Shown piece after piece: positions 1-5,125 of a stretch of DNA of 5,125 nt. Positions within the stretch are counted from its first letter, which is position 1. Each line of letters starts with the position of its first letter. The notes under the pieces are model-generated. The model saw only the letters and a list, made by a program, of their open reading frames with translations. It searched no databases and was not told the DNA's origin. The DNA comes from Fimbriimonadaceae bacterium (GTDB lineage Bacteria; Armatimonadota; Fimbriimonadia; Fimbriimonadales; Fimbriimonadaceae): positions 1-5,125 of the forward strand of contig JAIBBE010000130.1 in assembly GCA_019694835.1 (NCBI GenBank). Direction: 5' to 3'. Both the position numbers and the translations under genes were made by a program.

Positions 1-372
1 GTAGACGTTGCCCTGGACTTGCTCGAGGAGCCCCGGGTCGGCGCCCTTGCGTTCCTCGGCCTCGAGAATCCGGCGGGCCTCCTGCTTGGGGACGACCACG
101 CCGTCGACCAGCTGGCCGTCGACATCCAAGGCGTAGCCGCAGACCACGGCGTTATCGGGCAACGGAAAGGTGAGAGTTCCCTCCAGCACGCGATCGTTCG
201 GGTTGTAGAAGCGCATGGTCTGCGTCGTCTCGGCCAACAGACCGCTGACCTTGACCTGGATCTCCAGGCCACTCAGTTCGATGGCCCGTTCGCCGCGGGG
301 CGCCTCGACATAGGGCAACCGGTCCTCGGGCGAGAACTGGCGGTCAACCGATTGTCCGAAGAACCAAAACAT
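1..372 (-). CDS. VIT-domain protein, N-terminal part (C-terminus beyond the left edge)
   Basis: This reading frame is open from an ATG at 372 to the window edge, giving 124 residues and no stop. From about residue 30 the translation matches the VIT (vault / inter-alpha-trypsin) domain pattern. It shows IELSGLEIQVKVSG, then MRFYNPNDRVLEGTLTFPLP, then a segment reading VCGYALDVDGQLVDGVVV. After these come the family's KQEAR motif and the LLEQVQGNVY segment. Family knowledge: VIT domains usually precede a von Willebrand A domain and work in protein-protein interaction; that second domain would lie outside the window. The start MFWFFGQSVDRQF is short and followed by charged residues, so I see no signal peptide and infer a cytoplasmic protein. 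The ATG is preceded by GGGAG at a 7-base spacing. GC is about 66% by hand count, above the operon to its right. The exact role is unknown. Confidence 0.85.
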   Translation of the reverse strand, partial: MFWFFGQSVDRQFSPEDRLPYVEAPRGERAIELSGLEIQVKVSGLLAETTQTMRFYNPNDRVLEGTLTFPLPDNAVVCGYALDVDGQLVDGVVVPKQEARRILEAEERKGADPGLLEQVQGNVY

Positions 373-518
373 GAATCCGCTCCCTATCGACTGGCACTCT
401 CGTGCACAACGAACACCTAAATGGTCAGCGAGGGCGCTATGTCCCGTGTGTTCACAGACTGCCCCCGACCCGAATGCGTGCTAGCTGCAGCAATTCCCCC
501 ACGCAGCGTCGAGCACGG
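373..518. other. Intergenic gap between the operon and the VIT-domain gene
   Basis: This 146-base gap is the only sizeable non-coding stretch. It follows the stop of the 870-residue protein and precedes the VIT-domain start, so it should hold the end of the operon transcript and any promoter of the VIT gene. I find a possible hairpin with six-base arms at 475-480 and 500-505 (TGCGTG/CACGCA, 19-base loop). A competing pairing joins 477-482 with 512-517. Neither is followed by a T run, so a terminator is only possible. No convincing -35/-10 pair stands out on the minus strand. Confidence 0.7.
380..384 (-). promoter_or_regulatory. Ribosome binding site of the VIT-domain gene
   Basis: The minus strand reads GGGAG here, seven bases before the ATG at 372. 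This spacing and sequence support that ATG as the true start. The gene is thus likely translated independently of the operon upstream. Confidence 0.65.
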
Positions 519-3131
519 TCACCGTATCTCCTCGGACCGACAACTTTCTGCGCTTCCGTTTGCGACGCCGTCTGCCCCAGACAAGGGAGGCGATAGAGAT
601 TCGCCGAAGAGAACGTCGGCATCTCTCCAACACTCATCCGCCTTGGCGTTCGACAGCCGGGCTTGATCCCGGAATCCACTACGTGTGAGGCCGCGCTCTC
701 GCGCTTCCGCGGCCTTCTGGGCCAGGCTGAGTCTGACTTGATCCGAATCGGGGTTGGCATAGAACTTCCCATCCCGGAGTAGCGCTGGGACGACATCGTT
801 ACTTACTCCGAGGTGCTCGGCGATCTGCCTCCTCGTCGCACCCCCGGCCTGAAGTTCGACCGCGCGGCGGCAGCGATCGAGGCGATCGGCCCGGGCCTGC
901 GAGTTACTGGCGTTCTGGCCACTGCTTTTGCCGCTGCCGTTGCTTGCTGAGCCGGTCGTCGTGACGATCGTATTGTTCCTGGGTGGTCGCGGAGCTAGCT
1001 CTCCGCGTTGCGGGCGATCGCTCTCCGGTGGAAGCCATTTCGCGAAGATGTTCGGAAGATTCCGCAAGTCGGACTCAGTGACGGTCACGACAGGAATCTG
1101 GTGGCGGCTTGCCAGATCTATTTTTCGTTCGGCCTTGGCCATATAAGCGGGGTTAGCGGTGAAGCCCAGAGCTTCGACAAAGGTGCCATCCGCCAATCGC
1201 CAGTCCGCGCGGAATCCGTCGGGATTGATGTCGGGATCGAAGGGATAGAAGGGCTCGAGTTCGTGTTCAATGCCGTGATCGAAGAAGAAATCATCGATCT
1301 GGCGCTCCAGTAGCGATCGGCATAGGTGCCCGTCTTTGGCTGTGACAACGACGCCACGGCTTGTGCGAACGCCGGTGGCGAGAACTCCAGCCTTGGCCAG
1401 CCAATCTGTCCAGGAGTAGACCTTTCGGTGTCCGCCCGGGATGGCATAGCCGCGCCTTACGGCCAACATTCGGCACAACATCAGGAGATCCCGGTGTGGC
1501 CCCTCGCTGGGCATTGTGCGGAGTTGCTCGTGCGCGGGAGCGTCGCCGAACTCATGGGCTGCAAGCTTGATGATCGATCCGATGGCGGCGTCGTGCCACG
1601 GTTCGTCGTGGAAGCCGTGGTCTACGAAGAGGCCATCCAGGGCATCTCGAATACAGTCAAGGCAGTATGGCGATGGTTCGGCGTACGGATTTAACGCTCC
1701 GCCGCATAGTCGGCAGCCGCCGGCAGCGTTGGTGGGTTGGTCATCGGCGATCCGGATGTCGCGAAGCAGGTCTACTGGCAGTCGAGGAGCCTCTGGAGGG
1801 CGCCGATGCTGCGGAGGGATGCCGAAAGACATGCCCCCGCGCCCATTGCGGGCGCGCAAGTCCTCCGTTGCTTGCCATCCAGCCTCAATCTGGTCGGCCC
1901 AATCTGCGGGTATCAGTTGTCGTGCGTCCGGGCGAAGTTTCCTGACAGGCCTCGGATTTTGCAGGCGGGCAATCAAGTCCTGGCCGAATAACTGGTGGGG
2001 GTCACGCGGATGGTCTCGGAGGAGTACCGATTCCGGAATCTGACCGGCTCGGCGGAGTAACTTCTCGATTGGCGAGGCCAAATCAGGAGCGAAGACGTGT
2101 AGTTCCTTCGTCTCGAGATCGAAGCTTGCGAGATATGGTTCGACGTTTATTCCTGAGATCCTGCCGACCCAGAAGACGTGGATCCATGCGCCGGACTCCA
2201 ACTCCAGCGATGCGTTCAACCACCCTGGCGTTGGGTCGAAGGGGACCTTGATCCCTGCTTGGGCTAGAGCCGCGACCACTGCTGGCCTGTCGAATTCGCT
2301 CCCGACCTCCACTAAATCGGGGTTGGTCCTCACCAATCCGACGCATCCACCCGTTTCGTTAACGACCCGCACAGCGAAGTTCACTCGACGGCGCACCTGA
2401 AGCACAGGGTGATTGCTGTCTGCGTGATGGACGACCTCATCGGCAAGATGTTTGACGAGTTCGGTTCGCAGGCCATGTAACCACCGCAGCGCCGGGGTCC
2501 TCGTGAACTGTTCCTCCGTGAGGCGGGGGCCTGGAGCTGAAGATTCCGAGTCAGAACTATCTTCATGCGCCGCTAGGAAGTCCCTGATCGCGGCTCCCAT
2601 AATCCGCGCCTTCGGCAGATCAAGAGTGAGCTCTGGGATGCGCATAGGGATGTCCCATCCCTCTTCGTCATCCGAGCATCGATATTTCGCGATGTCGGCC
2701 GGATCACTTTCTCTAGACATGATTGCGGTGAAGTGGACTTCGCCATCCTCGGAGAATGCGGCAAGTCGTGAGACTAAATCCTTGCGGTCGTTGTTGGCGA
2801 TCCCCCAGTTGCTGGTTGTGTGCCGGTAGAGGTAACCGAGGCATCGCTCTTCCTCGTCGCCGCCCACCGACCTCGGTAAGGCAATCGAGACGGCATCGCT
2901 GTCGAATGGGTTATCGGGCCGCGGTATCAGTACCAAATCGACCGAGATGCTTCCCACCCTCTTTCCTCGCGCCGCAAAGGTTGCGTCTGCAAACTCAATG
3001 AGCCGCAAGTCGTAGATGCCGTCGCCGTCTTCGTCTCGAATCCGCGCCCACGAGACTCCGTCCGGGTTGATCGGGCCAGCCGGTGGAAGCGTGACCGTCT
3101 TACCGTCCCATTGGATGGCGTAGCTGGTCAT
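519..3131 (-). CDS. Multi-domain putative nuclease: HIRAN-like, zinc motif, PD-(D/E)XK-like core, C-terminal helix-turn-helix
   Basis: The protein has 870 residues. Residues about 60-103 resemble a HIRAN domain (LVLIPRPDNPFDSDAVSIAL, then CLGYLYR), a family known to bind DNA ends. Residues 200-460 are unrecognised. Cysteines 473, 476, 490 and 493 form two CxxC knuckles, probably binding zinc. Residues about 572-695 look like a PD-(D/E)XK-type nuclease. They begin with a YSWTDWLAKAG segment, followed by DGHLCRSLLERQIDDFF with E609, FRADW with D643, and FVEALGF with E653. Lysines 666 and 670 follow in a helix, then PVVTVTESDL. A linker rich in Ser, Asn and Gly (about 718-748) leads to a helix-turn-helix (ATRRQIAEHLGVSNDVVPAL, 765-784). 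The N-terminal ATG lies 7 bases after the upstream stop with only a weak ribosome binding site, suggesting translational coupling. Cutting nucleic acid is inferred; substrate and gene name are unknown. Some homologues with this nuclease core may be annotated simply as hypothetical proteins. Confidence 0.85.
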   Translation of the reverse strand: MTSYAIQWDGKTVTLPPAGPINPDGVSWARIRDEDGDGIYDLRLIEFADATFAARGKRVGSISVDLVLIPRPDNPFDSDAVSIALPRSVGGDEEERCLGYLYRHTTSNWGIANNDRKDLVSRLAAFSEDGEVHFTAIMSRESDPADIAKYRCSDDEEGWDIPMRIPELTLDLPKARIMGAAIRDFLAAHEDSSDSESSAPGPRLTEEQFTRTPALRWLHGLRTELVKHLADEVVHHADSNHPVLQVRRRVNFAVRVVNETGGCVGLVRTNPDLVEVGSEFDRPAVVAALAQAGIKVPFDPTPGWLNASLELESGAWIHVFWVGRISGINVEPYLASFDLETKELHVFAPDLASPIEKLLRRAGQIPESVLLRDHPRDPHQLFGQDLIARLQNPRPVRKLRPDARQLIPADWADQIEAGWQATEDLRARNGRGGMSFGIPPQHRRPPEAPRLPVDLLRDIRIADDQPTNAAGGCRLCGGALNPYAEPSPYCLDCIRDALDGLFVDHGFHDEPWHDAAIGSIIKLAAHEFGDAPAHEQLRTMPSEGPHRDLLMLCRMLAVRRGYAIPGGHRKVYSWTDWLAKAGVLATGVRTSRGVVVTAKDGHLCRSLLERQIDDFFFDHGIEHELEPFYPFDPDINPDGFRADWRLADGTFVEALGFTANPAYMAKAERKIDLASRHQIPVVTVTESDLRNLPNIFAKWLPPESDRPQRGELAPRPPRNNTIVTTTGSASNGSGKSSGQNASNSQARADRLDRCRRAVELQAGGATRRQIAEHLGVSNDVVPALLRDGKFYANPDSDQVRLSLAQKAAEARERGLTRSGFRDQARLSNAKADECWRDADVLFGESLSPPLSGADGVANGSAESCRSEEIR

Positions 3132-3138
3132 GTTCCGG

Positions 3139-4905
3139 TCAGATCGTCTTCAGTGCGAGAGCGATCCGCCCGCGGTCGATGTCGACGTCGACGACCATGA
3201 CCGTGACGATTTCTCCAACGGAGACCACTTCGGAGGGATGTTCGATTCGTCCTCGGCCAAGGCGTGTCTTGTGAATTAGTCCGTCGACATCGCCGAGATT
3301 AACGAAGGCACCGAACTCCGTGATGTTCGTGATTGGTCCCGAAAGGGTCTGCCCTACAGCAAGTTTACTTAGCGCTTCCTTCTTCCTTTCTTCATTCCCG
3401 TAGTGCCGCTTTGGTGACTTCCCGACGTTGCGGGTCTTGGTTGGAGTCTTGTCCTCGGGTCCGGGGGCATCGGGAGCGGGCGGGCGCGTGGACGGCTGGG
3501 TTGTGACGTCGGCGCCAACCAACCCCTGGTATTCAGCCGGAAGCGTGCCGATTACGTCGAGGGCGTGGCTCAAGTTCTCGGTCATGTACTTCTTGTAGGC
3601 GCCGTCGGCCAGAACCTGGTCTTGGACGAGGTCGCCCTCCTCCTGCCGGTATTTGCGAGATCTGTCGCCACGAAAGGACAACCAGTTGAAACTTGTTTTG
3701 ATGTAGAAGTCGTCGCCTACGAGGATCTTTGCGTGGGTGTCATCTACTCGGACGACCGCCAGGCGGCTGGATCGTTGCGCTGCGGTGTACAGATCGGCGA
3801 TGGCGGTTTGATCTGTCTTTTCATTGTCTCCGAATCCCCAGAAGATTGTGACGTCGGCCGTGCGGGCGAGCTGTTCCAGGCGACTGACCCACTGCGCGGT
3901 TACTACCGATCGGGTAATCCATGGGCTGATGATCAATAGCCGGCGCTGGGAATTGGACAGGGCTTCGTCGAGATACATGGGATGTTCGTAGACGCCCAGC
4001 CAACGGATCGCGGAGCGACTGAGGGTATCTGCGTCATGTGCGTCATCCTGTTGGGCCATTGCGGCTTGCACCGCGATGACTTCTTCCCGGCTTAGCCTCT
4101 TGCCGGGTTCGTCAACCGGTTCGTAGGTTTCCTCGTTGGGGGCGGTCGACAGACCGAGGCGTTCCACGGCGCCGATCGCGTCGAGTGCCGCAGCATGTGG
4201 TTCGCTCCATTGACCGTCGATTTCCACGCCGAGTCGTAGCGCATTGGAATCGATGTCTTTGAACACGAGCAGGATTGCGTCGCGGTAGTAGTTGCGGTTC
4301 TCCGTGACGCCGCTGACGCCCAGGATTCGGAAGGTGTCATTGCGGGAACCCAGCGCGGTTGAGATCGCTGCGTTGTCAAGGTTCTCCAGTTGCACGGGCA
4401 TGCTGGTCGACGGCGGCATGAGAATCCTGGCCGGATCCGACTTTGCCTGCGCCGCACGGAGAAGTGAGTGTTTTCTCCAGTCTGTGACGGTGTTGGTGAG
4501 CCTGTCGTAGATGACCTGGACGGTGGTCGATTTGGGCCGCCTGATGCACGCGTCCCTGGCCGCCTCTTGGCCGGCAGTTAGAAGCGAAAGACGCCGGGCT
4601 CCTCCCTCGGGCGGAGGTCGGTAGTCGATGAATTCAGCGACCAGCAGTGCGGCGACGACGTTGGCGGTGTCGCCTTCGTCTAATCCTAGGAACAGTTCCA
4701 GGTCTTCGACGGTGTCGATGCCGTTAAGCATGGCGCGCAGAGCATATTTCGATGACGCCTCGAGGTCTTCCGCCTGTTCGGCAAGCACGTCGACGGTCAG
4801 GATGGAGGCGGGTATCGCCGATGGTTCCGCAGCCAACAGGATGTGGCCCGGCAGAGCGTGTGCGTGGCGGCGGGCGGCATCGGCGAATATGTCGCGGGTC
4901 CTCAT
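3139..4905 (-). CDS. PLD-family (HKD) putative nuclease with winged-helix-like N-terminal part and C-terminal S1 RNA-binding domain
   Basis: The protein has 588 residues when started at the ATG at 4905. Residues about 50-118 resemble a winged helix, including the wing-like RLSLLTAGQEAA. The PLD-like domain covers about 315-440. It opens with RRLLIISPWIT and carries one canonical HxKx4D motif (H391, K393, D398), followed by IKTSFNWLSF with N407. A single HKD motif implies that two subunits would pair to form an active site, as known for single-motif PLD nucleases such as Nuc. A Pro/Lys-rich linker (about 466-512) leads to an S1 domain at 516-587 (ITEFGAFVNLGDVDGLIH, later GRIALALK). S1 domains bind RNA, so an RNA or RNA-containing target is likely. 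The start overlaps the helicase stop as ATGA. A longer frame from the ATG at 4956 would overlap the helicase by 55 bases and is less likely. Residues 125-310 are unrecognised. Confidence 0.9.
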   Translation of the reverse strand: MRTRDIFADAARRHAHALPGHILLAAEPSAIPASILTVDVLAEQAEDLEASSKYALRAMLNGIDTVEDLELFLGLDEGDTANVVAALLVAEFIDYRPPPEGGARRLSLLTAGQEAARDACIRRPKSTTVQVIYDRLTNTVTDWRKHSLLRAAQAKSDPARILMPPSTSMPVQLENLDNAAISTALGSRNDTFRILGVSGVTENRNYYRDAILLVFKDIDSNALRLGVEIDGQWSEPHAAALDAIGAVERLGLSTAPNEETYEPVDEPGKRLSREEVIAVQAAMAQQDDAHDADTLSRSAIRWLGVYEHPMYLDEALSNSQRRLLIISPWITRSVVTAQWVSRLEQLARTADVTIFWGFGDNEKTDQTAIADLYTAAQRSSRLAVVRVDDTHAKILVGDDFYIKTSFNWLSFRGDRSRKYRQEEGDLVQDQVLADGAYKKYMTENLSHALDVIGTLPAEYQGLVGADVTTQPSTRPPAPDAPGPEDKTPTKTRNVGKSPKRHYGNEERKKEALSKLAVGQTLSGPITNITEFGAFVNLGDVDGLIHKTRLGRGRIEHPSEVVSVGEIVTVMVVDVDIDRGRIALALKTI

Positions 4906-5125
4906 AGGTATTCGATCCTTCCGCCCTTGCCAGATTCGATGTGGTCGAGGACCCACCTCAGGGGTCCGTCCTTGGCGGAGCTGAAGTCTGAATCGCCTAC
5001 GAGCCAGAGGGCTTCTCGGGCGCGGGACAGCGCCACGTTCGTGCGACCTTTGAAACGTTCGCTGAGGAAGCCGAGTTCGCCGGCGAGGTTGCTGCGGGTG
5101 ACGGAGAAGACCACCACATCGGCCT
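4902..5125 (-). CDS. Superfamily 1 helicase of UPF1/DNA2 type, C-terminal end only
   Basis: Only the last 73 residues are visible; the frame is open through the right edge, so the true start lies outside. The segment ADVVVFSVTRSN matches helicase motif V of the UPF1/DNA2 group. It is followed by GELGFLSERFKGRTNVALSR, which includes motif VI with the arginines that contact ATP, and by the usual REALWLVGD. These are hallmarks of the AAA_12 half of SF1B helicases, which unwind RNA or DNA using ATP. The tail after LVGD is short (about 30 residues), so no extra C-terminal domain is fused. N-terminal domains, including any kinase or nuclease fusion, cannot be judged. Its stop overlaps the next start (ATGA), so the two proteins are translationally coupled and probably act together. 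Confidence 0.9.
   Translation of the reverse strand, partial: ADVVVFSVTRSNLAGELGFLSERFKGRTNVALSRAREALWLVGDSDFSSAKDGPLRWVLDHIESGKGGRIEYL
4917..4922 (-). promoter_or_regulatory. Probable ribosome binding site of the PLD/S1 gene
   Basis: The minus strand reads GGAAGG here, eleven bases before the ATG at 4905 and inside the end of the helicase gene. The spacing is a little long, but with the ATGA stop-start overlap it favours 4905 over the upstream ATG at 4956. Confidence 0.45.

Follow-up and report, generated by a model that had tools for sequence, protein, structure and literature searches.

Mokosh systems have been divided into two types, of which type I is described as having a kinase domain and as encoding its helicase and its PLD protein in separate genes, and type II as a single fused protein (PMC11672841). 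A PLD-like domain is listed for Mokosh in a table of defence systems (PMC10952713), MkoA and MkoC are listed among defence helicases (PMC12278908), and Mokosh is said to degrade foreign viral transcripts (PMC11291487). Here we compare with these systems a 5,125-nucleotide stretch of DNA assigned to a Fimbriimonadaceae bacterium (contig JAIBBE010000130.1, positions 1 to 5,125), whose whole length we call the window. A first-pass annotation had proposed that it carries a three-gene defence system, Mokosh-like or separate. Our analysis indicates that the first two genes are probably the 3' part of a Mokosh type I antiphage operon (mkoA-mkoB), and that the third, which starts 7 bp further on and which we call gene 3, is probably a nuclease gene with no relation to the pair and with a separate inheritance.

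The three genes lie on the minus strand and are read from right to left: the end of a superfamily 1 (SF1) helicase gene, MkoA-like and truncated by the window edge (C-terminal 73 aa, 4902..5123), an mkoB-like gene of 588 aa (3139..4905) and gene 3 of 870 aa (519..3131). The ATG of mkoB lies within the helicase stop codon (ATGA, 4-bp overlap), and the gap between the mkoB stop and the gene 3 start is 7 bp. Each of the three frames has homologues along its whole length, and by this sequence comparison they are real genes. The first-pass description of a tightly packed helicase, HKD-motif protein and PD-(D/E)XK-like protein was thus confirmed, with all three coding regions present on the minus strand.

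The Mokosh-like nature of the first two genes was borne out and can be sharpened to a Mokosh type I pair. PADLOC, run on the locus as the first-pass annotation had advised for a defence-system finder, calls them MkoA and MkoB. The helicase tail matches the end of the MkoA profile (60.9 bits, profile positions 1031-1099 of 1112) as well as Pfam AAA_12 (39 bits, 8.2e-10), and the 588-aa protein matches MkoB with 196.8 bits. A housekeeping helicase, which the first-pass annotation had named as evidence against a defence role, was not what we found, as the tail is MkoA-like. The nearest annotated sister found is on the Mycobacterium gallinarum plasmid pJCM6399. Its kinase-helicase of 1130 aa (Pfam Pkinase, AAA_11 and AAA_12; PADLOC MkoA, 668 bits) is 79.5% identical at its C-terminus to the window's tail over 73 aa, and overlaps its own PLD-S1 MkoB by 4 bp, as in the window; the two MkoB proteins are 73% identical over residues 3-588 of the window's protein. 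The window includes no more than the last 73 aa of MkoA, whose kinase and motor domains we know only from the sisters. A second Mokosh type I pair, with a full kinase-helicase MkoA, a PLD-S1 MkoB and again an overlap of 4 bp, is found on the Mycobacterium marinum plasmid pRAW. The pRAW pair is annotated only as a kinase and an S1-domain protein and has type VII secretion genes in its vicinity; upstream of the pJCM6399 pair (2963-8317 of that locus) is a gene for a DEAD/DEAH helicase protein of 1784 aa, which PADLOC matches weakly to DrmD and mad2.

All 13 Mokosh loci that we fetched have MkoA immediately upstream of MkoB (11/11 and 2/2). They came from 3 of 18 plasmid records, from 8 of the 9 genomes of two surveys (G381 was left out) and from a third survey, which contributed 2 of its 13 matching genomes, several of them with partial matches. 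The window has a separate PLD gene (an MkoB match, a PLD fold, an intact HKD motif and the 4-bp overlap with mkoA), and the pair is encoded in two separate frames, the first with its own stop and the second with its own start, and not as one polypeptide. Judged by sequence, and for MkoA by its tail and its sisters, the first two genes probably form a Mokosh type I pair.

In its structure model, MkoB shows three parts, each with a strong fold match: a MarR-like winged helix (residues 46-122, 4540..4770), a PLD-type nuclease domain (residues 295-470, 3496..4023) with an intact HKD motif formed by H391, K393 and D398 (3712..3735), and an S1 RNA-binding domain (residues 502-588, 3142..3402; Pfam S1, 58.5 bits, 8.6e-16), all on the minus strand. 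The structure model has a predicted local distance difference test (pLDDT) value of 79.7 and a predicted template modelling (pTM) score of 0.40, so the relative arrangement of the domains is not given by the model. Searched alone, the S1 segment matched no PADLOC family, and it therefore lies outside the PADLOC MkoB profile. Of 235 MkoB proteins found, we considered the best 120, the window's included (P0066-P0185); S1 was detected (E 1e-4) in 90 of them, again including the window's, a share that is not that of all Mokosh because the proteins were ranked by likeness to the window. Where organisms were named among these homologues, they were actinobacteria. A search of the open-licence literature for 'Mokosh' together with 'S1 domain' found no paper. 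There is thus an actinobacterial form of Mokosh whose RNA-binding tail is missing from the PADLOC profile.

The S1-bearing proteins also differ in their catalytic motif. Among the 120 MkoB proteins, the HKD histidine is present in 91, the lysine in 114 and the aspartate in all 120. The histidine is absent from 28 of the 90 S1-bearing proteins and from 1 of the 30 without a detected S1, and this single protein (P0137) was placed inside the S1 branch of our tree. The residues found in its place are R, P, Q, G, D, V and S. We placed 115 of these proteins on a quick tree that was calculated with the HKD columns left out, with support from the Shimodaira-Hasegawa-like approximate likelihood ratio test (SH-aLRT) only and with long-branch warnings. 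The trait needs eight changes on this tree, six of them forced by well-supported branches, and some of the changes are possibly regains; one clade of 14 proteins (support 100) lacks the histidine throughout. At the DNA level we read three histidine-less operons, that of pRAW (L092) and those of L120 and L121, which were taken as the loci of P0135 and P0142. In all three, the partner MkoA has the kinase motif HRDxKxxN, the Walker A motif and DEAS. In the same motif reading of the 13 Mokosh loci, the MkoB motif pattern missed L101 and L104, and L097 was without a canonical HRD motif. The window's own MkoB retains H391, K393 and D398, so the missing histidine is a property of its relatives.

This pattern argues that nuclease chemistry may not always be needed in the S1 branch of Mokosh, and in some Mokosh systems MkoB may be a pseudo-nuclease. 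Because the histidine comes and goes on the tree while the kinase and helicase motifs of the partner are intact in the three histidine-less operons, MkoB could serve as a scaffold or kinase target in those lineages. The absence of the catalytic histidine from part of the S1-bearing branch bears on how Mokosh works at all.

The proposed three-gene system was not supported, as we detected no conserved linkage in either direction among the loci and genomes tested. None of 35 gene-3 loci contained a match to MkoB or to the helicase tail at 1e-4; the full MkoA query found matches to its kinase part only, in 5 of the same 35 loci, and none to its helicase part. The better 26 of these loci (L001-L026), 20 of which extend at least 6 kb on both sides, shared no neighbouring family in more than four cases. 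In the 26 genomes behind them, the MkoB search gave matches only within residues 474-588, the S1 part, in 25 genomes and no match in one. Conversely, gene 3 was absent from all 13 fetched Mokosh loci, and of nine MkoB-positive genomes one had a gene-3 match, a short piece on a different contig from MkoB. These linkage counts do not cover the genomic contexts of two gene-3 relatives with 92% and 80% identity (clusters P0002 and P0003) and of three MkoB relatives with 94%, 92% and 85% (P0067-P0069). At the DNA level, the window resembles pJCM6399 over positions 3137-5123, and the resemblance ends at the mkoB stop. As a weak further hint, the 65 gene-3 clusters and the 120 MkoB clusters listed have only the window's own length in common when the lengths of their longest contigs are compared. 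Some of 72 selected neighbours of gene 3 had PADLOC matches, an uncontrolled count that speaks neither for nor against enrichment near defence genes, whose absence the first-pass annotation had also named as refuting evidence. Homologues of gene 3 apart from Mokosh and without a recurrent partner, which the first-pass annotation had itself named as evidence against its proposal, are thus what came up, and since no recurrent link of gene 3 to Mokosh emerged in the loci and genomes tested, its suggested role there as a sensor or second effector is unsupported. As far as could be tested, the trio is not a conserved system, and we found gene 3 beside the pair in this one sequence only. This removes a false lead.

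Gene 3 belongs to a rare, unnamed, mainly actinobacterial family with a conserved nuclease centre. We found 64 homologues besides the protein itself; within the order, 10 of 397 genomes gave a match, partial matches being counted. The structure model (pLDDT 82.9, pTM 0.64) suggests four parts on the minus strand. Residues 1-190 form a tentative, weakly matched HIRAN-like domain (2562..3131), and residues 473-493 a four-cysteine knuckle (C473, C476, C490 and C493; 1653..1715), whose cysteines are invariant in 61 of 61 aligned sequences and which probably binds zinc. At about residues 587-702 (1026..1373) lies a PD-(D/E)XK nuclease domain with E609, D643, E653 and K666/K670, which has a TnsA/Vsr-like fold with conserved E609, D643 and E653, that is, both the core fold and the catalytic acidic residues of this superfamily. 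E653, which the first-pass annotation had singled out, is invariant in all 61 aligned sequences, including the window's. Residues 744-843 comprise one helix-turn-helix (HTH) and a second helical unit (603..902). Neither Pfam nor NCBIfam has a family that gene 3 matched above the cut-off. In two of its relatives, P0051 and P0054, a RecQ-like helicase replaces the N-terminal part and most of the nuclease domain is missing; the C-terminal HTH part also ends a Georgenia protein annotated as a 3'-5' exonuclease (L096, 8001-8252).

These observations suggest how the two elements might work. MkoA, a serine/threonine kinase joined to an SF1 helicase in the sisters, would engage phage RNA or RNA-DNA. 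MkoB would use its winged helix and S1 domain to grip nucleic acid and would cut, as an HKD dimer, what the helicase passes on; the MkoA kinase may set a threshold for this. Gene 3 most likely acts alone and independently of the pair: its HIRAN-like head would recognise DNA ends or damaged DNA, its HTH region would hold duplex DNA, and its TnsA/Vsr-type domain would cut the DNA so held. From its set of modules, we take gene 3 for an independent nuclease, lodged behind mkoB, that would sense DNA ends. We offer only tentatively the broader proposal, which has clearly less than an even chance, that the Mokosh systems with S1 form a branch of their own, where the RNA-binding S1 domain makes nuclease chemistry dispensable and a histidine-less MkoB is an RNA-gripping scaffold or kinase target rather than a cutter, and that gene 3 is moreover an unnamed single-gene defence nuclease combining a DNA-end sensor with a TnsA/Vsr-type cutter.

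The pair might instead serve RNA metabolism, as a UPF1-like helicase with an S1 protein and no role in defence. The resemblance of its S1 domain to that of ribosomal protein S1 and the absent histidine in almost a third of the S1-bearing relatives would fit such a role, but the MkoA and MkoB profile matches are strong, copies are plasmid-borne, and the distribution is patchy: even with partial matches counted, three surveys gave 5 of 301, 7 of 394 and 13 of 250 genomes. We consider a role in RNA metabolism very improbable and retain the assignment to Mokosh.

Two further explanations concern gene 3. A single lineage, possibly one of environmental mycobacteria, could have recruited it recently to act with MkoAB as a sensor or second effector, giving a young three-gene variant of Mokosh. 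The 7-bp gap, the shared strand and the similar GC content at third codon positions (GC3) are in keeping with this, as is a nuclease with DNA-binding modules, and the relatives at 92% and 80% identity lie outside the contexts read. However, gene 3 is missing even beside the sister with the 73% identical MkoB, and the gene-3 loci without MkoB include those of the 63-65% identical relatives L002 and L001 (for L001, only 795 bp upstream were available), which makes such a young variant unlikely. A function in the maintenance or repair of a plasmid or an integrative and conjugative element, by processing of DNA ends and outside defence, seems to us possible though doubtful. Gene-3 matches occur in 7 of 72,556 plasmid records, covering 10-41% of the query, P0049 is named as plasmid-borne, and the RecQ-like helicase of P0051 and P0054 would suit repair; many relatives, however, lie in genome records of Streptomyces and Micromonospora, on long contigs that reach about 1 Mb, and the family is sporadic in the order. 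We therefore keep to an independent nuclease behind a Mokosh type I pair.

To the left of gene 3, the window contains the start of a gene for a VIT-domain protein (1-372, minus strand). Its GC3 is 0.86, calculated from 124 codons only, versus 0.67-0.76 in the three adjoining genes, and the three-gene stretch looks compositionally distinct from it. From the 7-bp gap, co-transcription of mkoB and gene 3 is plausible in this one organism. No tRNAs were found in the window, and no Rfam matches at gathering score.

Compared with the PD-(D/E)XK nucleases TnsA, Vsr and I-Bth0305I, gene 3 has additional HIRAN-like, four-cysteine and HTH modules and no recurrent gene context. Its head also differs from the HIRAN domain of HLTF, as Pfam HIRAN was found in only 1 of the 61 aligned sequences. 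It resembles PADLOC PDC-S69, a candidate defence protein, in residues 596-698 (29.7 bits), but only the nuclease domain matches, against positions 181-279 of the 289 of the profile and not the whole; PDC-S69 was not found in the open-licence literature, among the matches listed. In the pair, the PLD domain lies between a winged helix and S1, unlike in the PLD-family nucleases SauUSI, BfiI, NgoAVII and NucT. Mokosh type II (MkoC) has related PLD and helicase pieces, MkoC scoring 53.7 bits on MkoB and 16.5 bits on the helicase tail, but these are fused in one protein there and divided between two genes here. What is new here lies in an S1-bearing MkoB whose catalytic histidine is repeatedly absent and in the unnamed nuclease family of gene 3. 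As in Mokosh type I, the gene for the SF1 helicase and that for the PLD protein are separate and overlap, both PADLOC profiles match and the sisters have an N-terminal serine/threonine kinase, whereas the C-terminal S1 domain of MkoB sets this form apart.
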